IMG/VR virus record: IMGVR_UViG_3300029955_000004
Span: 61,142 to 125,141 of that record
Strand: one strand, 5' to 3'
DNA length: 64,000 nucleotides
From: a virus
Shown here: in pieces, positions 35,284 to 62,625 of the stretch
How the letters are laid out: each line of letters begins with the position of its first letter
Numbering within the stretch: position 1 is the first letter of the stretch
The notes under the pieces: generated by a model
Databases searched by the model: none
Told to the model about the DNA's origin: nothing
What the model saw: only the letters and a program-made list of their open reading frames with translations
Position numbers and translations under genes: made by a program

Positions 35284-38190
35284 ATGACGGTTCTTTATAA
35301 AGAAGATTGGGTAAGGAAAAACGCATTTGTTCATTCTAATACACAAAATAAGTCATTTATTAGAGCAAGTTTATTATTAGAAAGTATGGGAATTAAGAAT
35401 TGTCTATTTCCATTAACTATCTATGATAAAGACTTAATGAATATAGATCCTCATAAATTAAATGATAATTCAGTAGAATTAAGAATGAGAATAGCTATTG
35501 AGTGTAAACGAAATGTTTGGTATTATGTAAGAGAAGTTGTTAGAGTTGGTGCACAAGGTTCAGATCCTATTCCATTTAATGCAGATCGTGGTAATATAGC
35601 CATGATTTGGGTATTTGAAAATAATTTCCATTACATGAGTATCCAGCCCAGACAGACTGGAAAAGAACAACCATTAACAGCTAATGTTAAGACTCCAAAT
35701 GGTTGGATAAAAATGGGTGATATTAAAGTTAGCGACGATGTCATTGCCCACGATGGAACAACTGTAAAAGTAAAAGGTGTTTATCCGCAAGGAATTAAAC
35801 CTGTTTACAAAATAACTTTTGAAGATGGAAGATCTACAGAATGCGGTGAAGAACATCTTTGGAAGATCTATAATAAATATGAATTATCACAGAATCCTAC
35901 AACAGAGGTCGTTTCATTAGATAGAATAAAAGATCTTATTAATGATTATCCTAATATAAAATCTTTATTAAGTATACCCCTTATTACATCAGAAATAAAA
36001 GACGATGTTAATCTTCCAGTAGATCCATATATGTTTGGTAATTTATGTAGAGGTGAAAATATTCCAGAAGATTATTTAAATGCATCAACTTCTCAGAGGT
36101 TATCACTTCTTAGAGGTATTATGACGAATTTATTTATATCAAATAAAATAGGAGATATTTCATATTCTGTAGAAAGTTTAAAAGCTGTAAATAATATAAA
36201 ATATTTAGTCCGTAGTTTAGGCGGAATATGTAGAAGTGTTGAAAGAGATGATTCTTATGATCTTTATATCAAGTTGAATAACCAACAGAATAAATTAAGT
36301 TTAGGTATTTCTAATATAGAATTTGTAGGATATAAAGAAACACAATGTATTGAAATTGATCATCCTGATCACTTATATGTAACTGATGATTTTGTCGTTA
36401 CTCATAATACAACATGCGCTGTTGTGTTAACTTCATATGTTATTTATATTAGAGGTAAGAATTTTAACTTTGGATTATATACTAAAGACAGTGATCTTGT
36501 TCATGCAAATGTGCAGCGTTTAAAAATGGTTAAAGATAATCTTCCTAAATATCTTATTCATAAGTCTACTAGGGATGCTGATAATAAAGAAGGATTGTCT
36601 TATAATGTATTAAATAATAACTATATTACGTTTATTGGATCTAAAGATAAACAGGCCGCCGATAACCTTGGTCGCGGTATGACCGGACCGGCATATCATT
36701 TCGATGAGCCAGCTTATACCAATAATATCAATATTACATATCCGGTTATGATGTCTTCTACAAATGCTGCTGTCGAATCTGCTCGTAAAAATGGTATGCC
36801 GCATTCAAATATATTGACAACAACAGCCGGTCGTACTGATACTGATCGTGGTAAATATGCATTTGAATTATTAACAGGATCATTATCATTCAGTGAAAGA
36901 TTCTACGACTTAAAGAATAGAAAAGAATTGGAAACTATTGTTAAAAATAATTCTGGTAATAATATCATCTCTGGTGTATTCTCGCATCTTATGCTTGGAT
37001 TTAGTAATGAATGGTTAAATGAAAAGATCCGTAACTCTAATTCAACACAAGACGAAATTAATAAAGATTATTATAACATCTGGAGTACTGGTTCAGAACT
37101 CAGTATCTTGAAACAAGAAATATTGAAAAAGATCAATGAAAGTATTAGAGAACCAGATCATGTCGAATTTATTCATGGTTATGTCATTAGTTGGTATATA
37201 AGTGAAGAAGAAAGAACGTCAGATCACTTTAAGAATAAACAATTTGTTTTGGGTATGGATAGTTCAGAAAATATTGGTAGAGATTTTACAGCATTGGTCA
37301 TGGTCGATATATCAACACTAGAAGTTGTAGCAACATTTAAATGTAATGAATCCAGTACAACTAAAATTGCTATTTTTATTAGCGACTTCTTAGTCAAATA
37401 TAAAAACGTCTTATTTATTCCTGAAAGAAAAAGTACTGGTGGTTCTATTACTGATCAGGTTCTTGAAATCTTTGAGAAATATAGGATCAATCCATTTAAA
37501 CGTATTTATAATAAAGTGGTACAGGAGAGACAGGCTAATGAATATAAAGATGTTAAAATAGACGATATTGATCTTTTATTAAAATATCCTGCTATTAGAA
37601 GGTTCTTAGGATTCACAACTCAAGAAAAGACTCGTGAATTCTTATATAAGAATGTTCTTAATAAAGCAGCAGAACTCAATGCAGATAAAATCATTGATAA
37701 AACATTAGCAAGTGAACTAAGTTGTTTGGCTATTGTTAATGGTAGAATAGATCACCAGAATGGTAAACACGACGATATGGTTATTGCATATTTATTGTGC
37801 TGTTTTGTTATATTCTTTGGTAAGAATTTAGATTATTATGGAATTGACATTTCTGCACTGACTGATAATTACGATGTTAATGGTAATAAGATCGATAAAA
37901 GATATAGAGATAAACAGATTGCTTTCAGAAAAGAGATTTTAAAATTAGAAGATTTAATGGCAAATACAGCAAGTCTCGTACTAAAAGAATATTATAGAAA
38001 ACAGATAGAAAATCTCAGAACTATTATTGATGAGGATCTTGTATTAGAACCTATTAGTGTTGCTGTTGTTAATAGTGTCGTTGAATCTTATGGTAAGCTT
38101 TATTCAGCAAATGAAATCAAGTCTAATGATAATTCTCCCGTTATGTCAGAAACACAAATGTTAAATCTTGTAAAATTACTTCCATTATAA
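35284..38190 (+). CDS. Terminase large subunit with inserted intein
   Basis: A 968-residue precursor. The extein is a phage terminase: the Walker A loop is split into QTGK (ending at residue 127) and TTCAVVL (from 376), giving QTGKTT after splicing. Walker B AYHFDEP lies near residue 470, and the nuclease domain shows FVLGMDSS near 655 (first metal-binding Asp), LFIPERKS near 713, and KHDDMVIAYLL near 830 with the C-terminal Asp. The spliced protein would be about 720 residues. It pumps DNA into heads at the portal and cuts it. Residues 128-375 are a class 3 intein (separate entry). A local GC-rich patch covers the Walker B region (about 36650-36720). Confidence 0.92.
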   Translation: MTVLYKEDWVRKNAFVHSNTQNKSFIRASLLLESMGIKNCLFPLTIYDKDLMNIDPHKLNDNSVELRMRIAIECKRNVWYYVREVVRVGAQGSDPIPFNADRGNIAMIWVFENNFHYMSIQPRQTGKEQPLTANVKTPNGWIKMGDIKVSDDVIAHDGTTVKVKGVYPQGIKPVYKITFEDGRSTECGEEHLWKIYNKYELSQNPTTEVVSLDRIKDLINDYPNIKSLLSIPLITSEIKDDVNLPVDPYMFGNLCRGENIPEDYLNASTSQRLSLLRGIMTNLFISNKIGDISYSVESLKAVNNIKYLVRSLGGICRSVERDDSYDLYIKLNNQQNKLSLGISNIEFVGYKETQCIEIDHPDHLYVTDDFVVTHNTTCAVVLTSYVIYIRGKNFNFGLYTKDSDLVHANVQRLKMVKDNLPKYLIHKSTRDADNKEGLSYNVLNNNYITFIGSKDKQAADNLGRGMTGPAYHFDEPAYTNNINITYPVMMSSTNAAVESARKNGMPHSNILTTTAGRTDTDRGKYAFELLTGSLSFSERFYDLKNRKELETIVKNNSGNNIISGVFSHLMLGFSNEWLNEKIRNSNSTQDEINKDYYNIWSTGSELSILKQEILKKINESIREPDHVEFIHGYVISWYISEEERTSDHFKNKQFVLGMDSSENIGRDFTALVMVDISTLEVVATFKCNESSTTKIAIFISDFLVKYKNVLFIPERKSTGGSITDQVLEIFEKYRINPFKRIYNKVVQERQANEYKDVKIDDIDLLLKYPAIRRFLGFTTQEKTREFLYKNVLNKAAELNADKIIDKTLASELSCLAIVNGRIDHQNGKHDDMVIAYLLCCFVIFFGKNLDYYGIDISALTDNYDVNGNKIDKRYRDKQIAFRKEILKLEDLMANTASLVLKEYYRKQIENLRTIIDEDLVLEPISVAVVNSVVESYGKLYSANEIKSNDNSPVMSETQMLNLVKLLPL
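35665..36408 (+). other. Class 3 intein (248 residues) with decayed LAGLIDADG domain
   Basis: Begins at Glu (codon 35665) and ends His-Asn (36403-36408), with Thr as the first C-extein residue. Intein blocks are clear: TPNGWIKMGDI and DDVIAHDG (A), EDGRSTECGEEHLW (B), QCIEIDHPDHLYVTDDFVVTHN (F/G). No Cys, Ser or Ala at position 1. Instead the class 3 WCT set is present: Trp66 in HLW, Cys228 in block F, Thr246 before the terminal His-Asn. The middle keeps traces of a homing endonuclease (DPYMFGNL, QRLSLLRGIM, LVRSLGG), but the expected acidic DxDG residues are replaced (LLRGIMTNLF), so cleavage activity is probably lost. Confidence 0.88.
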
Positions 38191-44933: not shown

Positions 44934-45350
44934 ATGGCATATGATACAATTGATAATTTGATGCTTAATGGTACTTATGTGCTGGGAGTTTTTGGTAATA
45001 GATATGGTGGTGGTTATATTGCTGCTATGTGTTGGCATATGGATTTGTTGTTAGTAATTGAAGATGATTATACTGGCGGTGATGATCGAGGGTGTTCCGT
45101 AAGTGAATTCTTCTCTACAAATGATGTATACCCCGCAGCATGGGGAGAAACACCATCGGCGGCATTAGCGGAATTAGAAACTAAATTAAAGAATATTGTT
45201 AGTTCATCGAATTATGATTATGATAAATGGAATACATTAGTTATAGGTACAGTAACAGAATATCACAATGCTCGCCAATTGGCACAATACTTAGAATTTC
45301 CAAATACACTACAAGTAGCTATAGATGAATGGAAGAAACAATTACTGTAA
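44934..45350 (+). CDS. Unknown protein
   Basis: A 138-residue acidic protein behind AAGGAGAATACTAC. Gly/Tyr-rich N-terminal half (GNRYGGGYIAAM), helical C-terminal half. Function unknown. Followed by a nested hairpin terminator. Confidence 0.65.
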   Translation: MAYDTIDNLMLNGTYVLGVFGNRYGGGYIAAMCWHMDLLLVIEDDYTGGDDRGCSVSEFFSTNDVYPAAWGETPSAALAELETKLKNIVSSSNYDYDKWNTLVIGTVTEYHNARQLAQYLEFPNTLQVAIDEWKKQLL

Positions 45351-45396
45351 GTTATTTAAACTATATAATAAAAAATTTTAAATGGTAATAAAAAAG

Positions 45397-45449
45397 AGTT
45401 AAGTATAGTGGCAGAGAGTAATATCTCTGTACGATAGTTAACTTTTTAT
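45397..45449 (+). terminator. Nested hairpin terminator
   Basis: Outer pairing AGTTAA (45397-45402) with TTAACT (45438-45443), inner stem CAGAGA/TCTCTG (45412-45417 with 45424-45429), then TTTTTATTTT. Confidence 0.7.
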
Positions 45450-45468
45450 TTTATCAGGAGAAATTATC

Positions 45469-46302
45469 ATGCTTGAAGAAGCAACTATCCGTCAGAAAAT
45501 TGGTGAAGATATCACCAACGTTACAAATGGTAATTTCGATGGACCACTCTGGGTCTGGAGAGATAAAAACGAAACAACAGGTGTCTTGGGGTTAATCTCT
45601 AAATTGAACCACCATATTCCCGAAGGGCTTGAGTATGCATGGTTTCACAATAGTGTTGAGAGATTTATTCAGGACCTTCTCTCAGCAAGTGATTGTAGTA
45701 ATGAGTCATATGAGACGATTACCAGGTTTATCAACTCTGTTATTAAGGTCGGTACTGGTGGAGCCGAGTATACGATTTTCTACCATACCCCATTCGATCG
45801 TATAACTGGTGCAGATTCATATCGCCCAGCTATTTTTACTGTAACCCCGGGTGTTTCCAATATCATATTGCATCACAACGTTCCGACATATGACTGCCGG
45901 GCACGTGATGAATACATTAAAAATGGTTATGGAGATCGTGAGTTCTTCCGAACATATCGTCTCAGTGAGAAGCAGTTGAGTGATGGCAAATTCTGGTTTT
46001 TAAATGGAGAAGTCTTCGACTCTTCTGGAGAACCTGAGTTATTCACTCTTAAGATCGTCACGAATAATGAGGCCGATGTGACATCTGTCACGTTTCCCAT
46101 TGATGATTATGTGACTGGAGAAATGAATGACGGGCATCTCATTATAACGCTCATCAATCCCGATAGAGTCAAGAACATTGATATCAATACCGACGACTTC
46201 TCATTTGCTGAACTCGGAGATGCTATTTTCAAACGTAAACGAGAGCTTGTCATCAACACCGGATACAAATATCCTGATCAAGCGGAGGTTATAGATGTCT
46301 GA
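45469..46302 (+). CDS. Unknown protein
   Basis: A 277-residue protein behind CAGGAGAAATTATC. Mixed alpha/beta with GC-richer codons than its surroundings. No family recognised. It overlaps the following small gene by eight bases. Size and neighbourhood resemble the 253-residue gene at 48580, but I see no sequence similarity between them. Confidence 0.68.
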   Translation: MLEEATIRQKIGEDITNVTNGNFDGPLWVWRDKNETTGVLGLISKLNHHIPEGLEYAWFHNSVERFIQDLLSASDCSNESYETITRFINSVIKVGTGGAEYTIFYHTPFDRITGADSYRPAIFTVTPGVSNIILHHNVPTYDCRARDEYIKNGYGDREFFRTYRLSEKQLSDGKFWFLNGEVFDSSGEPELFTLKIVTNNEADVTSVTFPIDDYVTGEMNDGHLIITLINPDRVKNIDINTDDFSFAELGDAIFKRKRELVINTGYKYPDQAEVIDV

Positions 46303-46471
46303 GAAAAAACCGATCCGTACTACAGAAGAGCTACTCGAAGCATGGAAACATCTTCGTAATGCAACTCCGAGAGAGCTTGCGGTTGTCGATCCTTACTTTC
46401 TTCCAGAAGTAATGTATCGCCTCAAGGAGATAAATGATGAACTTACAGATCCACATCTGTGGCCAACATGA
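46295..46471 (+). CDS. Small unknown protein overlapping the previous gene
   Basis: A 58-residue protein; ATG 46295 follows GCGGAGG. The eight-base overlap with the preceding gene suggests coupled translation. Helical, acidic. Function unknown. Confidence 0.6.
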   Translation: MSEKKPIRTTEELLEAWKHLRNATPRELAVVDPYFLPEVMYRLKEINDELTDPHLWPT

Positions 46472-46477
46472 AAGATA

Positions 46478-46509
46478 CTGATGCGAGACGAGATCTCGTC
46501 TCGCATCAG
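46478..46509 (+). terminator. Perfect palindromic hairpin
   Basis: 32-base palindrome (CTGATGCGAGACGAGA and its complement), 6 bases after a stop codon; followed by TACAAAAAAA rather than T, so possibly an RNA end signal. Confidence 0.7.
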
Positions 46510-46546
46510 CTACAAAAAAACACAATACTGGGGTAGGAGCATGATC

Positions 46547-46861
46547 ATGATTTCGCCTATATATCCACTAAGTCTAGTCTCTGTTATTTTGATTTTTATT
46601 ATTGTCTATAGAATTCTAATAGAATTGAAAGCGATTAGTGCCATTAATATGGGATTTTATCAAGGATTGCCGAGCACACATTTACGCCAAGTAGAGCATG
46701 CTTGTATTGTTATCAGAACACCAATCTTTGAGAATGAACTCAAGTCCGTAGTTAGATGTATAAAGAACGATCTGTGGATACAGGCTATCTATCAAAATAA
46801 GAAATCAGATTATCCCAATATAGCAAGGTTTGCTAAATATCACAACATTGAACTAGAATAA
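46547..46861 (+). CDS. Small membrane-anchored protein
   Basis: A 104-residue protein. The open frame extends to 46481 but that part is the palindrome; GGTAGGAG at 46532-46539 fits ATG 46547. Residues ~5-25 (YPLSLVSVILIFIIVYRIL) are a membrane segment; the remainder is cytoplasmic-looking and basic. Function unknown. Confidence 0.62.
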   Translation: MISPIYPLSLVSVILIFIIVYRILIELKAISAINMGFYQGLPSTHLRQVEHACIVIRTPIFENELKSVVRCIKNDLWIQAIYQNKKSDYPNIARFAKYHNIELE

Positions 46862-46875
46862 AGGAGTTTAAGCTT

Positions 46876-47154
46876 ATGACTCTTGACGAAGAAGAACTTG
46901 AGCTAAGTAAACAGCTCGATAATATTTACATTGCTATTGTGAATGAATATCATTTAAGATCTCAGTATATAGTTAAACGATTATTTGAAATTAAGCAACA
47001 GAAGATTTTATTACAACCGCTATCTATATCGTTTGATGAAGTACAACCCTGTTATAATAAACAAGAATTTCTGGATCGGATGGCACAGCTTCCAAAATTA
47101 GATGACTCCGAGAGTCTCTCTGCTATCTTTAAAGAAGAAGGAACATCATCATGA
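46876..47154 (+). CDS. Small helical protein
   Basis: A 92-residue, Glu/Leu/Gln-rich protein with heptad-like spacing in residues ~1-50, likely a coiled coil. Starts behind AAGGAG. Its stop overlaps the next start (ATGA). Function unknown. Confidence 0.62.
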   Translation: MTLDEEELELSKQLDNIYIAIVNEYHLRSQYIVKRLFEIKQQKILLQPLSISFDEVQPCYNKQEFLDRMAQLPKLDDSESLSAIFKEEGTSS

Positions 47155-47357
47155 AACAACTCACTATCTCGACGACATTCGATGATGCACAGCATGAACT
47201 CGCACTAAAGGATGTGCTGGATAAGTCAATGCGGTGTGTAATCAATAAGCAGATGAAAGTGTTATTTGCAGACCCACATCTTGATGTTTCTGATTGCCGG
47301 TGGTTTAAAGGACCCCCCGATCTATCTGCTGACACTAAGCTTATTCAAGGTGGTTAA
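47151..47357 (+). CDS. Small unknown protein
   Basis: A 68-residue protein starting in a four-base ATGA overlap, with GAAGAAGGAAC upstream. Function unknown. The reading frame directly after (47350-47475) in another frame may be a separate gene or the original C-terminus lost by a frameshift. Confidence 0.55.
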   Translation: MKQLTISTTFDDAQHELALKDVLDKSMRCVINKQMKVLFADPHLDVSDCRWFKGPPDLSADTKLIQGG

Positions 47358-47475
47358 TATTACCAAAGACGGCATAATGTGCTATGACGGTATCCCTGAC
47401 GATAATATCCTCGTCAAATCTCGCTTGGCGGCCGATGCCGAGATCCTTAAGGATCTCTTGAAAGAAAAAACATGA
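47350..47475 (+). CDS. Possible small protein or frameshifted tail
   Basis: 41 residues from a GTG at 47350 (VVNITKDGIMCYDG...) overlapping the previous stop by eight bases. No good ribosome-binding site. The GC-rich codon use and the compact IMCYDGIPDDN motif suggest real coding, either independent or the tail of the 47151 gene after a frameshift. Confidence 0.4.
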   Translation: MVNITKDGIMCYDGIPDDNILVKSRLAADAEILKDLLKEKT

Positions 47476-47545
47476 TCAAATATATACAAGATAAGTCCAC
47501 TCTTTGAATTGTGTAATCAAACACAGTTCATTGGAGTATGACTAG

Positions 47546-47752
47546 GTGACTAAAGAACAAGAACTGAAGTTTTGGGATGCTTTGGGCGATGGCTCTGGCT
47601 GGCCTAAAATGACGGACGACCCAGAAGTCAACTTTGTGGTAGACTGGTTCGTGGCCGACAAAGACGATTGGGATTTCTCCTATACCACATGGGACGAACT
47701 CCCTGAGGAGGACAAAATCGTCTACCGTTACGAAGCAGAGCATATGAAGTAA
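47546..47752 (+). CDS. Small acidic protein
   Basis: A 68-residue, strongly acidic and Trp-rich protein (about eighteen Asp/Glu and six Trp). GTG 47546 lies nine bases after TTGGAG. Acidic DNA-mimic inhibitors have this composition, but that is only a compositional hint. GC-rich codons. Confidence 0.6.
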   Translation: MTKEQELKFWDALGDGSGWPKMTDDPEVNFVVDWFVADKDDWDFSYTTWDELPEEDKIVYRYEAEHMK

Positions 47753-47759
47753 AACTACA

Positions 47760-47798
47760 TAGAGGATGTGCCGATGCACATCCTCTATTTTTTTATTT
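47760..47798 (+). terminator. Rho-independent terminator
   Basis: 12-bp stem (47760-47771 with 47776-47787), CGAT loop, then TTTTTTTATTTG. Confidence 0.9.
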
Positions 47799-47820
47799 GT
47801 AGTCAATTATATTTCAAATA

Positions 47821-47828
47821 TATATTAT
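47821..47828 (+). promoter_or_regulatory. Early-type promoter motif TATATTAT
   Basis: 40 bases before ATG 47868. Confidence 0.7.
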
Positions 47829-47867
47829 TATTATGTAATGTTATAACAGAAGGTAAGGTGTACTAAA

Positions 47868-48425
47868 ATGTCTAACGTTGACAATGATCTTGTCGCGCCA
47901 CTCAATGCCAAATATATTGAACTTTATAAGGAGCTTGATAGCATACTTAAAGAGATCTCCGATGCTCAACTACGAATAACCAATCTCGATAGTGAGCGAT
48001 TGGAACTTGTAGAACGAATCGCACATATTCGTAATACAGCGACCATGTTTAACATAACTTTGACAGAGGTGCTGGTAGAACAGGATATCCCACCAACCGA
48101 TACGCCAATCGATATCAGTCGGTGTGAGCATGATCTCGATATTGATAAGACTGGCTTTAATTGGTATAATAAAGTAGCTAATGAGGCAGTTTATCTCAAA
48201 AATGGTACTAAACTTACGTTTCTATATAAAGCTAAATCGTATTATGCAACAATAATTGATGGTATGCCTGTGACAGATATTGGTGGAATTAAATACTCAT
48301 CTGTACCATTGTGGTACAAATCGGTAACTTCTGCTATCGGGAGTTCGATAGATAAAATATCCGTTAGACTCCCAGGCGATCCGGAATGGATATGTGCTCG
48401 ACGTCTGTTTCGACCTATATCCTAG
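47868..48425 (+). CDS. Unknown early protein
   Basis: A 185-residue protein. Residues ~8-60 are a likely coiled coil (Leu/Glu/Ile heptads), followed by a globular half with DISRCEHDLDIDKTGF and a beta-rich end. Function unknown. Single-gene module between early promoter and terminator. Confidence 0.68.
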   Translation: MSNVDNDLVAPLNAKYIELYKELDSILKEISDAQLRITNLDSERLELVERIAHIRNTATMFNITLTEVLVEQDIPPTDTPIDISRCEHDLDIDKTGFNWYNKVANEAVYLKNGTKLTFLYKAKSYYATIIDGMPVTDIGGIKYSSVPLWYKSVTSAIGSSIDKISVRLPGDPEWICARRLFRPIS

Positions 48426-48440
48426 AAAGGTTAATGCCAG

Positions 48441-48478
48441 TGGAGTAGTCTATATAGACTACTCCATTATTTTTTATT
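48441..48478 (+). terminator. Rho-independent terminator
   Basis: 26-base palindrome (TGGAGTAGTCTAT and its complement), followed by TTATTTTTTATTTG. Confidence 0.88.
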
Positions 48479-48501
48479 TGTGATTAAGCATATTTCAGAT
48501 A

Positions 48502-48509
48502 TATATTAC
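48502..48509 (+). promoter_or_regulatory. Early-type promoter motif TATATTAC with extended block
   Basis: 71 bases before ATG 48580. The following ~30 bases copy the block found after the promoter at 2517. Confidence 0.78.
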
Positions 48510-48579
48510 TTAAGTGAAACAAGTTTACTTCTTAAGTGAACTTTACTGGAATTACAACATACATCCTTGGAGTAACATC

Positions 48580-49341
48580 ATGGAAACAGATACAAATACC
48601 ACCATTTACACGACTATTATTTCTGGGGGTATCACTCCGTTGGTTAATTGGCCGATTTCTGGATTCGATAATGCTCGACGTATCAATTTCGATCACGATC
48701 GTTATGAATTCGAAGTAGTGACAACCAATCCGAAAGATAAAGATCGGCGTATTTTTAAACCATCTGGTATAGATTGGGAATTCGCTGAAGAATACGTTGG
48801 TAAAATCGATGAATCTCCGCATGATACGTATGTGTCATTGTGGATGAGGCCCCGCCGTGAACTGAAAGACCTTAAGTTCGATAATGATTATCGTCACTAT
48901 ATCTACCACCACGGAGTGGAGAATGTGCGATTTATCATTCCAGTTAAGCGACTTCAACAGATTCTGATGATCGCATTTACGACAAGCGATCAGCCTGAGA
49001 CTGCTGCGGTTTGCAAAATCGTTGAGGGTTTCAATCGGACTGTTCTCGACAACTACAAGTATCAACTTCAGCCCATTGCACATGAGAATGCATCAGAAAC
49101 GTTCTATGTTAGCGATCTTGTATCGCTGATGCGGGAACTTCCTGATCAGTTCATGATGGTCGACCATTTCAAGGCTGGCGATAAGGTCGTGATTTCTGAA
49201 ACCAGACACGCCGTTCATGAAGTATTCAAGGTCGTTGATATCACGGATCTTACTGGGCGTAAGCACCATCAGGATGTATTTTTGAAAGAGATCCCTGATT
49301 GTGTGTTTTCTGGCGATAGTCTGATAAGAGCTTATAAATAA
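48580..49341 (+). CDS. Unknown early protein
   Basis: A 253-residue protein; ATG 48580 follows CTTGGAG. GC-enriched codons. Residues ~205-235 (DHFKAGDKVVISETRHAVHEVFKV) look like a small beta barrel. No family recognised. Confidence 0.7.
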   Translation: METDTNTTIYTTIISGGITPLVNWPISGFDNARRINFDHDRYEFEVVTTNPKDKDRRIFKPSGIDWEFAEEYVGKIDESPHDTYVSLWMRPRRELKDLKFDNDYRHYIYHHGVENVRFIIPVKRLQQILMIAFTTSDQPETAAVCKIVEGFNRTVLDNYKYQLQPIAHENASETFYVSDLVSLMRELPDQFMMVDHFKAGDKVVISETRHAVHEVFKVVDITDLTGRKHHQDVFLKEIPDCVFSGDSLIRAYK

Positions 49342-49350
49342 TGAGATCTG

Positions 49351-49380
49351 GGAGGGTGTAATTACACCCTCCAATTTTTC
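49351..49380 (+). terminator. Rho-independent terminator
   Basis: 22-base palindrome (GGAGGGTGTAA and its complement), followed by AATTTTTC. Confidence 0.85.
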
Positions 49381-49425
49381 AATAAAACAGAATATACGAT
49401 CATATCAAACATCCTGGAGGTAATC

Positions 49426-50094
49426 ATGTTTACACAATCTGACTTCAAGCACTGGTTTCCTATCGAACAGACCCGTCATTACATCGCCGACATTATTCCC
49501 GATGGGGCGAAGGTTTTGGAAATTGGCGCCTGCCATATTCCATTTCCGAAAGCTACGACATATGTCGATTATGTCTATGATCCCAAGATCGACAATGTCG
49601 TTTGTGATGTTACCAAAGAACGACTTCCTTTTGAAGACAAGTCATTCGACTTCGTCTATTGTCGGCACGTCATTGAAGACCTGTGGAATCCCTTCCTGGT
49701 TCTCAGTGAAATGCAGCGGGTGGCCAAAGCCGGTTACATTGAAACCCCATCTATCGCACAAGAACTTGCTCGGGGTGTCGGCGCCGGCTCATTTAACTTC
49801 CGAGGCCATTGTCATCACCATTGGTTCGTTTATAACGACAGTGGTGTGCTGAAGTTTATCAGCAAGCTTCCTTGGATCGAACACGTCGAGTTCGACGAAG
49901 AACAAATCGAACATATGCTTAAGACATACCCCATATACTGGAATACATACTTTCAGTGGACGGACAAGTTTGACTTTGAGCATGTCCAGGGTCAATATCC
50001 GATGTTGCAGAATGACATCATTTCTGGCTTACATGTCGGATACCAGAATGCAAATGCTTTTACAGAGACAATCATCGATCACTATAAAGAATAA
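49426..50094 (+). CDS. Class I SAM-dependent methyltransferase-like protein
   Basis: A 222-residue protein behind CTGGAGGTAATC. Motif I VLEIGA at residues 30-35, the acidic CDVTKERLPF around 63-72 and DKSFDFVYCRHVIEDLWNP around 75-93 (motif IV region), then MQRVAKAGYIETPS; these fit the Methyltransf_11-type SAM-binding fold. The C-terminal half is His/Tyr-rich and lacks a target-recognition motif I know, so the substrate (small molecule, protein or glycan) is open. GC-richer than neighbours. The adjacent accessory genes give no clue. Confidence 0.78.
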   Translation: MFTQSDFKHWFPIEQTRHYIADIIPDGAKVLEIGACHIPFPKATTYVDYVYDPKIDNVVCDVTKERLPFEDKSFDFVYCRHVIEDLWNPFLVLSEMQRVAKAGYIETPSIAQELARGVGAGSFNFRGHCHHHWFVYNDSGVLKFISKLPWIEHVEFDEEQIEHMLKTYPIYWNTYFQWTDKFDFEHVQGQYPMLQNDIISGLHVGYQNANAFTETIIDHYKE

Positions 50095-50161
50095 TAAAAA
50101 TATGTGATTGATAAAGAATACGTTATATTGTTGAAACTATTTGATCTCTTACTATAGATCA

Positions 50162-50188
50162 CTGGAGTGAGTTTTGTATTCACTCCAG
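50162..50188 (+). terminator. Hairpin
   Basis: 9-bp perfect stem CTGGAGTGA/TCACTCCAG, nine-base loop; no T-run follows. Confidence 0.55.
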
Positions 50189-50210
50189 AATTATGTAGTA
50201 ACTGAAAACT

Positions 50211-50336
50211 ATGGGAAGAATCCTCAATAACCGTGAAGCACTCGGTTATATCTACAACAAGGAATCTGGAGAGTTTTACTCCCTAGATGACAAAGCTACA
50301 GTCAATGAACTCTATGACACCTATAATTGGTGTTAA
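50211..50336 (+). CDS. Possible 41-residue protein
   Basis: An open frame with balanced codons and a protein-like sequence (ALGYIYNKESGEFYSLDDK). It lacks a clear ribosome-binding site, so expression is uncertain. Confidence 0.4.
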   Translation: MGRILNNREALGYIYNKESGEFYSLDDKATVNELYDTYNWC

Positions 50337-50355
50337 ATGAACTTAGGAGATCGAG

Positions 50356-51261
50356 ATGTCACTAGATAGAAAAATTACCCGCAATGCTGATGGTTCTGTT
50401 TCATCTCTGAGTGATAAATTGGACGAGGCTATCGATTATGGTCTCAGTCGGCTCATGGATGTCACGTATCATAATGCATATAGTGATAGTGGGGAGCTAT
50501 TATCATTAAAGTCGTTCGGTGCAATATGGCCGCTTGGGTGGATTCCAAATGATCTTGCTGATGATATCCTGATATTTGGTCCTGACAGCGAACAGATGAA
50601 TCCGAGTGTACTCTGGCCGATAGATATATCATTGGCTATTCCACAAGACGATGGTACTATCCAACTGATGCATGTACAAACTATATCCCCAAGAGAACTG
50701 CGGGGAAAGGTTTCTAATTTTGCACAGCACATCGTAAAGGTCTCCACTGCATTCATCCTGAGGAATGGGACTTATACTACAGAAGTTAACTACTTTGGTT
50801 ATCTCAATAAGAAATGGAGTGCGCTTAAACCAATAATACGCATGGTTACATACAATCAGAATGGAGGTCTCACAGCTGGTAAGAACTATGCTAATTTTAA
50901 TATCAATGTAAATGTGACGATGGCTATGTCTGTTGCATTAACTAGGCGGTATATGTGGGAAGTTACCTTTCAAATAAAAGATAGCCCAACTCTCTTATTT
51001 CTAACAAACCCATCAGGTATTAGAGAACTCTTTCAGAATCGTGATGTTCCTGTTGGAGAAAATAGAAAAAAGGCTCTTCGTAACTGGGTTCGTGCACATA
51101 CACGAGAACTAAAGAATTCTCAGAACGAAGAAGATATCGTCTTCGTACGTCGACATTTCAGAGGTAAAACATCTTTTGATTGGCAGGGGTACTCCTGCAC
51201 TATAACACCTAGTGAATATGATCTTGAAAAGTACTTCTCTAGTAAAGAAACTAAACAATAG
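50356..51261 (+). CDS. Conserved-looking phage protein of unknown function
   Basis: A 301-residue protein behind TTAGGAGATCGAG. The C-terminal ~80 residues (KKALRNWVRAHTRELKNS, VRRHFRGKTSFDWQGYSCTITPSEYDLE) resemble a C-terminal segment I associate with uncharacterised phage proteins (LRHWVREHWR...HLRG...F.W.G). Function unknown; no catalytic motif seen. Confidence 0.7.
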   Translation: MSLDRKITRNADGSVSSLSDKLDEAIDYGLSRLMDVTYHNAYSDSGELLSLKSFGAIWPLGWIPNDLADDILIFGPDSEQMNPSVLWPIDISLAIPQDDGTIQLMHVQTISPRELRGKVSNFAQHIVKVSTAFILRNGTYTTEVNYFGYLNKKWSALKPIIRMVTYNQNGGLTAGKNYANFNINVNVTMAMSVALTRRYMWEVTFQIKDSPTLLFLTNPSGIRELFQNRDVPVGENRKKALRNWVRAHTRELKNSQNEEDIVFVRRHFRGKTSFDWQGYSCTITPSEYDLEKYFSSKETKQ

Positions 51262-51275
51262 TCATAAACTATGTG

Positions 51276-51307
51276 CAAGGAGATGTGGTATATACCACAT
51301 CTCCTTG
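51276..51307 (+). terminator. Perfect palindromic hairpin
   Basis: 32-base palindrome (CAAGGAGATGTGGTAT and its complement), followed further on by TTATTATTTTTTT. Confidence 0.85.
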
Positions 51308-51342
51308 GATCGCTTATTATTTTTTTAACAATATCTTACGCA

Positions 51343-51350
51343 TATATTAT
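51343..51350 (+). promoter_or_regulatory. Early-type promoter motif TATATTAT
   Basis: 48 bases before ATG 51398. Confidence 0.68.
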
Positions 51351-51397
51351 TTGTATGTAGTTCAATGTCATAACTATAACTTAAAAGGATATGGGTC

Positions 51398-51748
51398 ATG
51401 CTAGAAGTATCTCAGAGAAAAGTAACCGATACCATATCGGTATTGATCAATCTTCCCAATGACGATTCACCAAAACATAATTTTATTTTAGATATTTTCT
51501 TTGAACCGTATTTAAAAGATATAGGTCCACATCGATATATTGTATTATCACAACACAATGATAATATTCGCGTACAATTAAACATGGTTAATACAATTTC
51601 AATAGATAGTAATAGTGTTTTTCTTATATATGAATTCTACAAGTATTATGTAAGAATAACTAATCATTCCGATAATAATGATATTAAACTTATACACGAT
51701 AAGTTACTTAATTTATGGATAGGTGGACATATGGTATCGTTAAAATAG
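51398..51748 (+). CDS. Unknown early protein
   Basis: A 116-residue beta-rich protein; ATG 51398 follows AAAAGGATATGGGTC (an upstream ATG at 51391 is out of frame). Single-gene module. Function unknown. Confidence 0.65.
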   Translation: MLEVSQRKVTDTISVLINLPNDDSPKHNFILDIFFEPYLKDIGPHRYIVLSQHNDNIRVQLNMVNTISIDSNSVFLIYEFYKYYVRITNHSDNNDIKLIHDKLLNLWIGGHMVSLK

Positions 51749-51814
51749 TAGTGATCAAATTATATATTTATTAAATGTATGTTTAGATATGAAATATCCA
51801 GAATGACAAAACAC

Positions 51815-51846
51815 GATAGTAGATGAGAGTACTCTCATCTACTATC
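51815..51846 (+). terminator. Perfect palindromic hairpin
   Basis: 32-base palindrome (GATAGTAGATGAGAGT and its complement), followed by AGTATTTTATTT. Confidence 0.82.
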
Positions 51847-51890
51847 AGTATTTTATTTAAAAATAAACGATAATGAAATTTATTCAAATA

Positions 51891-51898
51891 TATATTAT
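51891..51898 (+). promoter_or_regulatory. Early-type promoter motif TATATTAT
   Basis: 38 bases before ATG 51936. Confidence 0.7.
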
Positions 51899-51935
51899 TT
51901 ATTTGACATATCTAGCATAAAAAAAGGACATCGCT

Positions 51936-52505
51936 ATGCTTGACTACACACCAGACAAAGTCATATTTCGTCATTATGACACTATTGATCATGACGTATA
52001 TGATCGGAAGTTCATAACTGGGACTATCCATAATGGTTCCAAAGCAAACCTCAAACGTTGGGCAATGCTCAATGGTTTGTTGAACATCATGGAAGATGAA
52101 GACGGACTTCAGGGAGGGAGGTCTCTCCACGTATCATATGGATCGACAAAGCCGGGATGTAACAAACGCATTGCACAAATGCAATATCATCCATGGCTCA
52201 TTGTCCCTCCAGAAGAATTAAGTGTGTTCATTATGCCAGTCAGAGGAAATCTATTCCGACACAGAGTAGGATTTATCATAGATTCTGAGTGGCTGAAGAA
52301 TCGCATCCGCTCAATCAAGAAGTCTTATGGTCTTCTCGATGAGAATATATACAATCCTCACATCACTGTGAGCGTTGGTACGAAAATACCGGCCAAGTTG
52401 TCGAAGCCAAACTTCGCCATCGTGATTATTGGTGAACAAACGTTGCCATATGTAACCAAACACGTACAAGAAGAAATATCGAATAGAACATCGGCATATG
52501 CATAA
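51936..52505 (+). CDS. 2H phosphoesterase-like early protein
   Basis: A 189-residue protein behind AAAAAGGACATCGCT. It has two His-x-Ser/Thr motifs 77 residues apart: LHVSYG (His65, Ser67) and NPHITVSVG (His142, Thr144), each followed by a hydrophobic stretch. This is the signature of the 2H phosphoesterase superfamily (LigT, cyclic phosphodiesterases), which cleave 2',3'-cyclic or cyclic-oligonucleotide phosphodiesters. Phage members include Acb1 (T4 57B), which destroys CBASS signal nucleotides. Whether this one does so is inference from fold, early promoter and single-gene context. Confidence 0.6.
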   Translation: MLDYTPDKVIFRHYDTIDHDVYDRKFITGTIHNGSKANLKRWAMLNGLLNIMEDEDGLQGGRSLHVSYGSTKPGCNKRIAQMQYHPWLIVPPEELSVFIMPVRGNLFRHRVGFIIDSEWLKNRIRSIKKSYGLLDENIYNPHITVSVGTKIPAKLSKPNFAIVIIGEQTLPYVTKHVQEEISNRTSAYA

Positions 52506-61007: not shown

Positions 61008-61450
61008 TTATTTTATCAAATAAAGAAGATATTGAAAAAGTCATAGAAGATGTCAAACCACTTATTATAGAAAGTATAAATAGTATTAAATCAAGAGAAT
61101 ATGGTGAAATGTTTGTTTTGAGTGAAGACAGAATTATAACTATAATTAAAATGAATACATTGGTTATCCTAAAGAACAAGGACAATAATGATATTATCGG
61201 TTATGCTTCTATTATTAAACTTGAAGCATTCAAAGATGCTATTTTTATTAATGATATTTTTGTTAGATATGAATATAGAGGACGACGTTATGGTCACTTA
61301 TTAATGGATGAAATAATTGATGAATTCAGAGATAGTTGTTCAAATATTATCCTTAATTCTGATATTGATAATTATATCGCAAACAGATTCTATAAAAAGT
61401 TAGGATTTGAAATAACAAATTATACACAACGTTTAAAACTTTTGCCATGA
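60989..61450 (+). CDS. GNAT-family N-acetyltransferase
   Basis: A 153-residue protein. The GNAT core is visible: DAIFINDIFVRYEYRGRRYGHLLMDEII (beta4, then the R-x-x-G-x-G/A pyrophosphate loop as YRGRRYG, helix 3) at about residues 85-112, then NRFYKKLGFE near 133-142. It should transfer an acetyl group from acetyl-CoA to an amine; substrate unknown. ATG 60989 overlaps the previous gene. Ends before a strong terminator. Confidence 0.8.
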   Translation: MLSTEVIILSNKEDIEKVIEDVKPLIIESINSIKSREYGEMFVLSEDRIITIIKMNTLVILKNKDNNDIIGYASIIKLEAFKDAIFINDIFVRYEYRGRRYGHLLMDEIIDEFRDSCSNIILNSDIDNYIANRFYKKLGFEITNYTQRLKLLP

Positions 61451-61520: not shown

Positions 61521-61572
61521 TTTATTGGTCAAATCTTGACTAATTTTGTTTCTCCTTTTGAAAGGACATCAC

Positions 61573-62625
61573 ATGTCTCTGAACGATTCTAAAGTTGCCC
61601 CCGGTATTCCGTCTTTTATTGTTTCTACCCAGCGGCGGGCACCTGAAGTCCAGACGATCATTGCTGCCAAAAATGCTCCTACGATTTCGTTTTATTTCTG
61701 TGGTGGTACTGGCATCAATACTTACAATCGTGTTTCGATGTTGCTTCCCGAATCTGCCCATATTCAGATCTTCGATACTGCCGATAAATCGAATCGCATC
61801 GACACCAATATCGATGTTACGATTCTGACGCCGGCCGCCGTCGGTTCTGGCGGCGATCGCAATGAAAACAGCCGTACTATCGCCGCTGCCTTGTCTGAAG
61901 TCGACCACGTGAATGAAGACATTGCATTTGTCGTTTTCGGCAAGTCTGGCGGTTCTGGCTCTGTGATCGGTCCGTTGTGGGCCAAAGAACTGCATCGTCG
62001 CGATCAGAGCATTCGTATTATCGGCATTGCCATCGCCGACCACGAATCCTCGCAGCAGCATTCCGACAACATGAAGGGTGCCACTAAGTCGCTGATTAGC
62101 ATCTGCGAAAAGAATGGCATTTCTATTCCGCTCATCATCTACGACAACAAGTATGGGCGGAATATCGTCGACAAGGAAGTCACCAATCTGTTCAAGATGT
62201 TTCTTCAGATTTTCACGACGCAAATCAACGAGATCGATCCGTCTGATTTCCTGAATTTCATCGCGCACAAGTCGACGACGCCCGGCATCAAGTGCCTGAA
62301 TGTGCGATGCACCAATTCAAACGAGATCGTCAGCTCTGCGATCCAGGAAGATTCTGATGTCTATGAATCCATTCTGACTATCATCGGTTCTACCGATGCA
62401 GAGTCCGAGTTCAAGCAGGTGTCGGCGACCAGGTCGTTCAGTGGCATCTTCGAATCTCCTGATTTCCCGTCTATTCGTCTGGCCATTTCCGAATTTTCTT
62501 CAAAGTTCGAAGAGCTGGCCAAGGAGACCGAAGATCATCTGAATTCGCTTAAGCAGGCCAAAGCCGCTCAGAACAAAGCTTCGGTCTGGAAAGTTTCCGG
62601 CGACGAAGATGACCTGATCTCATAA
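61573..62625 (+). CDS. phuZ: PhuZ-like phage tubulin
   Basis: A 350-residue tubulin/FtsZ-superfamily protein; ATG 61573 follows AAAGGAC. N-terminal GTP-binding segment FYFCGGTGINTYNRV (residues 40-54), GSGGDR near 91-96, and the signature loop FGKSGGSGSVIGP (122-134; cf. GGGTGSG), followed by RIIGIAI and ISIPLIIYDN with the expected strand-helix spacing. The C-terminus ends in an acidic tail (SGDEDDLIS), as in PhuZ, where the tail is needed for polymerisation. PhuZ filaments centre and rotate the phage nucleus. Very GC-rich, host-like codons and an early promoter indicate heavy early expression. Confidence 0.78.
   Translation: MSLNDSKVAPGIPSFIVSTQRRAPEVQTIIAAKNAPTISFYFCGGTGINTYNRVSMLLPESAHIQIFDTADKSNRIDTNIDVTILTPAAVGSGGDRNENSRTIAAALSEVDHVNEDIAFVVFGKSGGSGSVIGPLWAKELHRRDQSIRIIGIAIADHESSQQHSDNMKGATKSLISICEKNGISIPLIIYDNKYGRNIVDKEVTNLFKMFLQIFTTQINEIDPSDFLNFIAHKSTTPGIKCLNVRCTNSNEIVSSAIQEDSDVYESILTIIGSTDAESEFKQVSATRSFSGIFESPDFPSIRLAISEFSSKFEELAKETEDHLNSLKQAKAAQNKASVWKVSGDEDDLIS

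Follow-up and report, generated by a model that had tools for sequence, protein, structure and literature searches.

A class 3 intein, very probably functional, at the Walker A site of a phiKZ-like phage terminase

Introduction

How does an intein that begins with glutamate persist in the ATP-binding loop of a viral packaging enzyme? This question is raised by a terminase large subunit gene (terL) within a stretch of 64,000 nucleotides, hereafter the window, that forms the final part (positions 61,142 to 125,141) of the 125,141-base virus record IMGVR_UViG_3300029955_000004 in IMG/VR. The analysis described here indicates that the insert is a class 3 intein, very probably functional, which interrupts the Walker A motif (K^T; the caret marks the insertion point) of a phiKZ-like terminase large subunit, with splicing inferred from its preserved residues. 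It is a well-preserved example of a known splicing class and not a new mechanism.

Class 3 inteins carry a Trp-Cys-Thr (WCT) triplet at positions 12 of block B, 4 of block F, and 5 of block G (B:12, F:4, and G:5), and a phage origin has been proposed for them (PMC3196547; papers are cited by PMC number, each for an excerpt of its text). The original prediction for this locus described them as rare, a view that does not hold: 1,701 have been counted in nr, 82.5% of them with LAGLIDADG motifs (PMC7891396), and at least 579 relatives of the intein were confirmed in a single scan of IMG/VR.

Results

Boundaries and insertion site

The features of the locus are as follows.

35284-38190, plus strand: terL, precursor of the terminase large subunit, 968 amino acids, interrupted by the intein (PHROG terminase families; similarity to phiKZ TerL)
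35284-35664, plus strand: N-extein, 127 amino acids, up to the Walker A part PRQTGK at 35647-35664 (intein-free homologues with PRQTGK^S)
35665-36408, plus strand: class 3 intein, 248 amino acids, Glu1 to Asn248 (alignment to solved inteins, relatives, AlphaFold2 model)
35665-35667, plus strand: Glu1, residue 128 of the precursor
35854-35856, plus strand: His64 (B:10), aligned with His65 of the intein MchDnaB-1
35860-35862, plus strand: Trp66 (B:12), two residues past His64 (conserved in relatives)
36019-36282, plus strand, ends approximate: half of a LAGLIDADG homing endonuclease, comprising its second half plus what is left of helix 1 (alignment, PI-SceI match)
36346-36348, plus strand: Cys228 (F:4), presumed initiating nucleophile (conserved in relatives)
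36400-36402, plus strand: Thr246 (G:5), followed by His247-Asn248 (conserved in relatives)
36403-36408, plus strand: His247-Asn248 (G:6, G:7), the C-terminal end of the intein
36409-36411, plus strand: Thr+1, first residue of the C-extein
36409-38187, plus strand: C-extein, 593 amino acids, beginning with Thr+1 (TTC), the remainder of the terminase (phiKZ TerL similarity)

The intein spans 744 bases, i.e., 248 stop-free codons in frame within an open reading frame that remains open throughout its 968 codons. These boundaries, and Glu1 as residue 128 of the precursor, agree exactly with the original prediction. The junctions read PRQTGK^EQPLTAN on the N-terminal side and FVVTHN^TTC on the C-terminal side. 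Similarity to phiKZ-like terminases was found on both sides of the insert. The N-extein matches two PHROG families of terminase large subunits (phrog_32359, E 1.5e-30; phrog_2, E 7.6e-27), and the C-extein matches 295 phage records, with phiKZ-like phages scoring best and phiKZ TerL sharing 38.9% identity over 85%.

Empty alleles fix the boundary. The terminases of phiKZ, PhiPA3, and one viral contig (L010) are uninterrupted and read PRQTGK^S, while that of phage OBP reads PRQSGK^T; the predicted split of the Walker A motif between GK and TT is therefore exact. Among 29 terminases compared (28 of them different), the intein is present in 14, after PRQxGK or CRQVGK, and absent from the 15 others, so that intein-free relatives of the kind the original prediction proposed to look for do exist. 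Intein-bearing terminases measure 968-1161 amino acids (mostly stop-to-stop lengths) and intein-free ones 681-824; the exact PRQxGK string is absent from the intein-free terminases of JHP1101, SPFM16, and Staphylococcus phage S6. The content of guanine and cytosine is 27-33% over the intein and 28-34% in its flanks.

A family profile search of the record returned one intein, and a search of the record with Pfam Intein_splicing gave no match. Against Pfam-A and NCBIfam the intein stays below the cut-offs, including that of Pfam Hom_end_hint (E 0.089), so standard annotation can miss an intein of this kind. Its PHROG matches are to helicase loader, primase, and DNA polymerase families, which we take to reflect inteins within those families rather than function.

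Class 3 residues and predicted fold

We used phmmer to compare the intein with solved chains. It matched 6riz (gp41-1 engineered to WCT; E 5.6e-11), 6bs8 (the natural class 3 intein Msm DnaBi1; E 2.1e-9), and 6rix (the class 3 intein MchDnaB-1; E 8.3e-9), values that argue against a chance resemblance. His64, Trp66, Cys228, and Thr246 align with His65, Trp67, Cys124, and Thr143 of MchDnaB-1, the residues assigned to the catalytic triad and the WCT motif of that intein (PMC7664689). Trp66, Cys228, and Thr246 likewise align with Trp67, Cys118, and Thr137 of Msm DnaBi1 (numbering from PMC6195587). The sequence thus holds the full set of class 3 features, i.e., the WCT triplet, His at B:10 and G:6, Asn at G:7, and Thr at +1. 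Class 1 inteins have Cys, Ser, or Thr at position 1, where this one has Glu; class 2 inteins lack both a nucleophile at position 1 and the WCT triplet, which is complete here. No nucleophile would be needed at position 1. The original prediction had assigned the intein to class 3, adding that an alignment with Trp66 or Cys228 off the class 3 positions would count against it; both solved class 3 inteins, and the 158 relatives described below, bear out the assignment.

We modeled the intein in AlphaFold2 together with 10 and 6 flanking extein residues, using 65 relatives (a 66-row alignment). The model reached a predicted local distance difference test score of 91.5 and a predicted template modeling score of 0.89. 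It superimposes on 6bs8_C with a Z score of 18.7 and a root-mean-square deviation of 1.4 Å over 123 residues, and on 6riy_A with a Z score of 18.7 and 1.8 Å over 128 residues. Since model residues 11-258 (intein residues 1-248) cover residues 1-139 of the 6bs8 chain, both ends of the intein are in register. Class 1 mini-inteins match almost equally well (6mwy_A, Z 18.4), and the fold therefore supports a Hint domain rather than a class. The whole model also matches PI-SceI (1jva_B; Z 21.5, 252 residues aligned).

Conservation among relatives

Two samples of relatives were drawn. The first comprised 158 distinct inteins (70 from viral contigs, 78 from genome contigs, and 10 from isolates), obtained from 177 matches among the best 80 of at least 579 IMG/VR relatives, the best 80 of 189 GTDB contigs, and isolate phages; nine entries with missing ends or partial second domains were excluded. 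Some of the search patterns used for this sample contained the Cys or Thr in question, and one viral pattern lay inside the endonuclease half. The second sample was therefore drawn by the block A pattern alone: the best 80 of 90 matches gave 56 distinct inteins complete at both ends, and 16 of these are shared with the first sample. Four of the loci from this search have no C-terminal end, two (L276, L277) end as cut in PTSN rather than THN, and position 1 is unreliable wherever GK was not found.

His B:10, Trp B:12, Cys F:4, Thr G:5, His G:6, and Asn G:7 occur in all 158 inteins of the first sample. In the block A sample, Trp and Cys are present in 56 of 56 and Thr in 54 of 56, the exceptions being one Ser and one Asn. 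Position 1 varies: among the 158 it is Ala in 125, Glu in 9, Ser in 9, Met in 4, Asp in 3, Cys in 3, and another residue in 5. Three of these five are script misreads (L061 and L066 have Met and L081 has Tyr after GK), and L035 is uncertain. In 149 of 158 the two residues before the intein are GK, and the +1 residue is Thr in 148 and Ser in 10. With position 1 nearly free and WCT close to fixed, the window intein and its relatives put the class 3 mechanism to a test in nature.

We also considered Glu1 as a special or new feature and ruled this out. The original prediction had singled out a first residue other than Cys, Ser, or Ala, and terminase inteins among the relatives begin with Glu, Asp, Leu, Met, Tyr, or Gln. 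The nine that begin with Glu are the window intein, those of three near-identical Aphroditevirus-type terminases (L027, L028, L030), that of the Aeromonas phage AhC3_1 helicase (L014; GK^EQGL), and L041, L071, L084, and L132. Glu1 is therefore ordinary for inteins of this kind.

Some relatives have peculiarities of their own. L222 and L232 end in SHN and NHN rather than THN and retain Trp and Cys. The terminase inteins L061, L066, L068, and L081 begin with Met or Tyr, and their block A has diverged (e.g., GK^MQRNSSKVRV); WCT is complete in L061, L066, and L081, and L068 was left out of the alignment. The L154 intein lies in two parts in different frames (profile positions 1-211 and 211-280), for which a frameshift, a sequencing error, and a split intein are candidate explanations. 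Matches to a partial second intein domain stand beside the first in L036, L042, L051, L127, L153, and L161.

Endonuclease remnant and selection

The LAGLIDADG remains noted in the original prediction are real, and both catalytic acids are missing: FGNLCRGEN (motif 1) and LLRGIMTNLF (motif 2) stand in place of LLGDG and LMDTDG. Only 3 residues of the first endonuclease subdomain are left, compared to 73 in a full-length relative, while the second subdomain is kept. Active LAGLIDADG homing takes both acidic helices and two subdomains. Judged by its sequence, the homing endonuclease is dead, with half of it deleted, and therefore this copy could no longer drive its own homing; we infer, on sound grounds, that the intein is now a splicing-only element, as originally proposed.

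Similar decay is common among the relatives. By automatic alignment, 95 of the 158 inteins retain both LAGLIDADG acids, 20 retain one, and 43 none. All 50 inteins shorter than 310 amino acids have partly or wholly lost the first subdomain (0-51 residues versus 73); they retain the last helix block (23-32 versus 30), and the motif 2 stretch is less evenly kept (8-34 versus 28). Shortened inteins make up 12 of 56 in the block A sample, all of at least 197 amino acids, with 0-24 of 73 residues of the first subdomain, 15-27 of 28 of motif 2, and 24-30 of 30 of the last block. Because both samples consist of the best rows ranked by score, the kept last block is a tendency and does not prove that mini-inteins are absent. 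Class 3 mini-inteins are known in mycobacteria.

To gauge selection, we compared ratios of nonsynonymous to synonymous substitution rates (dN/dS) in six pairs of terminase inteins, all from other phages and with dS near saturation in most pairs. The endonuclease relic gave 0.03-0.51 and the splicing part 0.02-0.15 (five pairs, the sixth being saturated), the relic being less constrained than the splicing part in three of the five pairs and more constrained in two. In these phages, the relic thus changes at less than the neutral rate, although the effect is weak in some pairs.

Endonuclease domains without activity have been described, as have splicing domains that rely on the scaffold of the endonuclease (PMC8966425). 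Within this frame, the half that is kept probably serves the splicing domain as a structural partner. A tentative extension, which we consider possible but would not favor, is that the splicing domain of P-loop class 3 inteins depends on the second half of the dead endonuclease: decay would halt there once the first subdomain is deleted, mini-inteins would be rare, and the window intein would be an end point, held because packaging needs it. If so, the second half would be an obligatory folding or regulatory partner in these inteins. The recurrence of half-endonuclease inteins offers material on whether a splicing domain comes to need its parasite partner.

Proposed splicing route and alternatives

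The proposed route is modeled on class 3 inteins tested elsewhere, all three of which required Cys F:4 (PMC5222942). After translation, Cys228, aided by His64 and Thr246, would attack the Lys127-Glu128 bond to form a thioester branch. The N-extein would then be transferred to Thr+1, cyclization of Asn248 would release the intein, and an acyl shift would join PRQTGK to TTC, giving PRQTGKTTC and a full Walker A loop. Glu1 would take no part in the reaction, and its identity would therefore be nearly free. The ATP-binding loop of the unspliced protein is broken and would not bind ATP normally. Packaging should therefore depend on splicing, and this dependence would keep the intein in working order.

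Several observations weigh against a functional intein. Cys or Thr formed part of some of the patterns that gathered the 158 relatives. A full WCT triplet does not guarantee splicing, since gp41-1 engineered to carry it was mostly C-cleaved (PMC7664689). In all six dN/dS pairs, the intein (0.05-0.23) is less constrained than the extein (0.006-0.12), and these values come from other phages, with dS near saturation in most pairs; as every copy of the window intein that was found has the same sequence, they give no direct measure of its own selection. In the inactive class 3-like intein Arth_1007 of Arsp-FB24, putting back His B:10 and Cys F:4 did not bring about splicing (PMC3196547), which also lends some weight to the view that the window intein is itself inactive and pseudogene-like. 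On this view, Glu1 and the decay of the endonuclease are signs that the element is dying, while another terminase is used or the phage is defective. We consider this very improbable. Arth_1007 lacks Cys F:4 and His B:10, whereas the window intein has all such residues; its reading frame is intact over 968 codons, the Walker A residues are conserved on either side of the insert, and an identical sequence occurs in three contigs.

Less probable still is a class 1 or class 2 route, in which another nucleophile acts or Thr+1 attacks the N-terminal junction directly and Cys228 is incidental. Some class 1 inteins do have Cys F:4 (PMC3196547), and Cys60 and other cysteines are present here. However, Glu at position 1 could not form the class 1 (thio)ester, the equivalents of Trp66, Cys228, and Thr246 occur together in all 158 relatives despite the varying position 1, and in the class 3 intein Bvi IcmO a Cys at +1 is no substitute for Cys F:4 (PMC5222942). 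The intein could also serve as a regulatory switch whose conditional splicing, e.g., redox-dependent, times packaging. This idea is compatible with a functional class 3 intein and draws on one class 3 intein that senses oxidation through its catalytic Cys (PMC6195587), as well as on the dead endonuclease half, which persists and whose rate of change in other phages is below that of neutral sequence. We nonetheless regard it as unlikely, given that the intein is patchily present (14 of 29 related terminases, with at least four changes of state on the extein tree), that relatives manage without it, and that all five mycobacteriophage terminase inteins tested spliced readily (PMC5050341). Splicing by the class 3 route remains much the best account of the locus.

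Origin of the terminase inteins

The intein trees contain WCT inteins only; the larger has 101 rows, with genome-contig loci sampled at every fourth number, and the second has 36. The 101-row tree places the window intein beside a helicase intein (L024; support 97/86), and the 36-row tree disagrees. Holding all 10 terminase intein rows of the 36-row tree together costs 4.97 log units and is not rejected by the approximately unbiased test (p = 0.37). The idea that the terminase intein was acquired independently, with a helicase intein as its source, is therefore not upheld. On the extein tree, which requires the four or more changes of intein state, the window terminase sits on long branches without firm placement.

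Comparison with known inteins

The closest counterparts in form are the terminase inteins of Klebsiella phage vB_KvM-Eowyn and Serratia phage KpGz_1, which occupy the K^T site of the same gene, have a complete WCT triplet, and are 40-42% identical to the window intein. Both have 257 amino acids and an endonuclease half-deleted to the same degree; they differ in having Asp rather than Glu at position 1, and the extein tree gives no firm relation between their terminases and that of the window. The same TerL site and a THN^T end are found in Vibrio phage 2 TSL-2019 (Aphroditevirus), Klebsiella phage YC1, Aeromonas phage D6, and the EL-like Pseudomonas phage HHBS8_1, whose inteins begin with Glu, Leu, Asp, or Gln and span 293-350 amino acids. 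Unlike the window intein, that of YC1 has a full-length endonuclease; its terminase record was labeled intein-containing by the depositors. Klebsiella phage Miami, known here by search score alone, falls in the range of YC1. The product label of the HHBS8_1 terminase (L195) is silent on its intein, as are those of two adjacent helicase genes with such inteins in phage EL (L017, record positions 45323-52063).

Among solved inteins, Msm DnaBi1 and MchDnaB-1 (6bs8, 6rix, 6riy) share the Hint fold and have their catalytic residues in register with the window intein; unlike it, they are DnaB mini-inteins of 139 and 145 amino acids without an endonuclease half. PI-SceI, a class 1 intein, combines Hint and LAGLIDADG parts as the window intein does, but has 454 amino acids and both endonuclease halves.

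The K^T position is a known TerL insertion site, being among those of the P-loop inteins of mycobacteriophage terminases (PMC5050341). The TerL1-a site described there belongs to terminase families and hosts other than the window's, and the five inteins that spliced lie at sites other than K^T, the a-site intein not being among them. Among other jumbo phages, inteins in the large terminase have been described in Rak2 and K64-1 (PMC5259590) and in several Lupandier phages (PMC7412058). We liken these to the window intein by description, as the excerpts of these papers do not state class or insertion residue. In excerpts of the open-licence literature on jumbo-phage and terminase inteins, we found no description of phiKZ-like terminase inteins as class 3. 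Because the site is empty in many related phages, splicing can here be linked to a well-defined function, the packaging of DNA.

Genomic context

An identical copy of the intein occurs in three IMG/VR contigs (6,013, 67,981, and 208,374 bases), and the 208,374-base contig also carries an identical terminase. Within the window, a PhuZ tubulin gene lies at 61546-62622 (phrog_4733, E 1.4e-29); a 242-amino-acid open reading frame on the opposite strand (61540-62268) overlaps this PhuZ-type gene and is probably not a real gene. The window further encodes topoisomerase II proteins, a tail sheath, and a head maturation protease. We take it to derive from a phiKZ-like jumbo phage, one that encodes PhuZ and whose packaging ATPase carries a class 3 intein.

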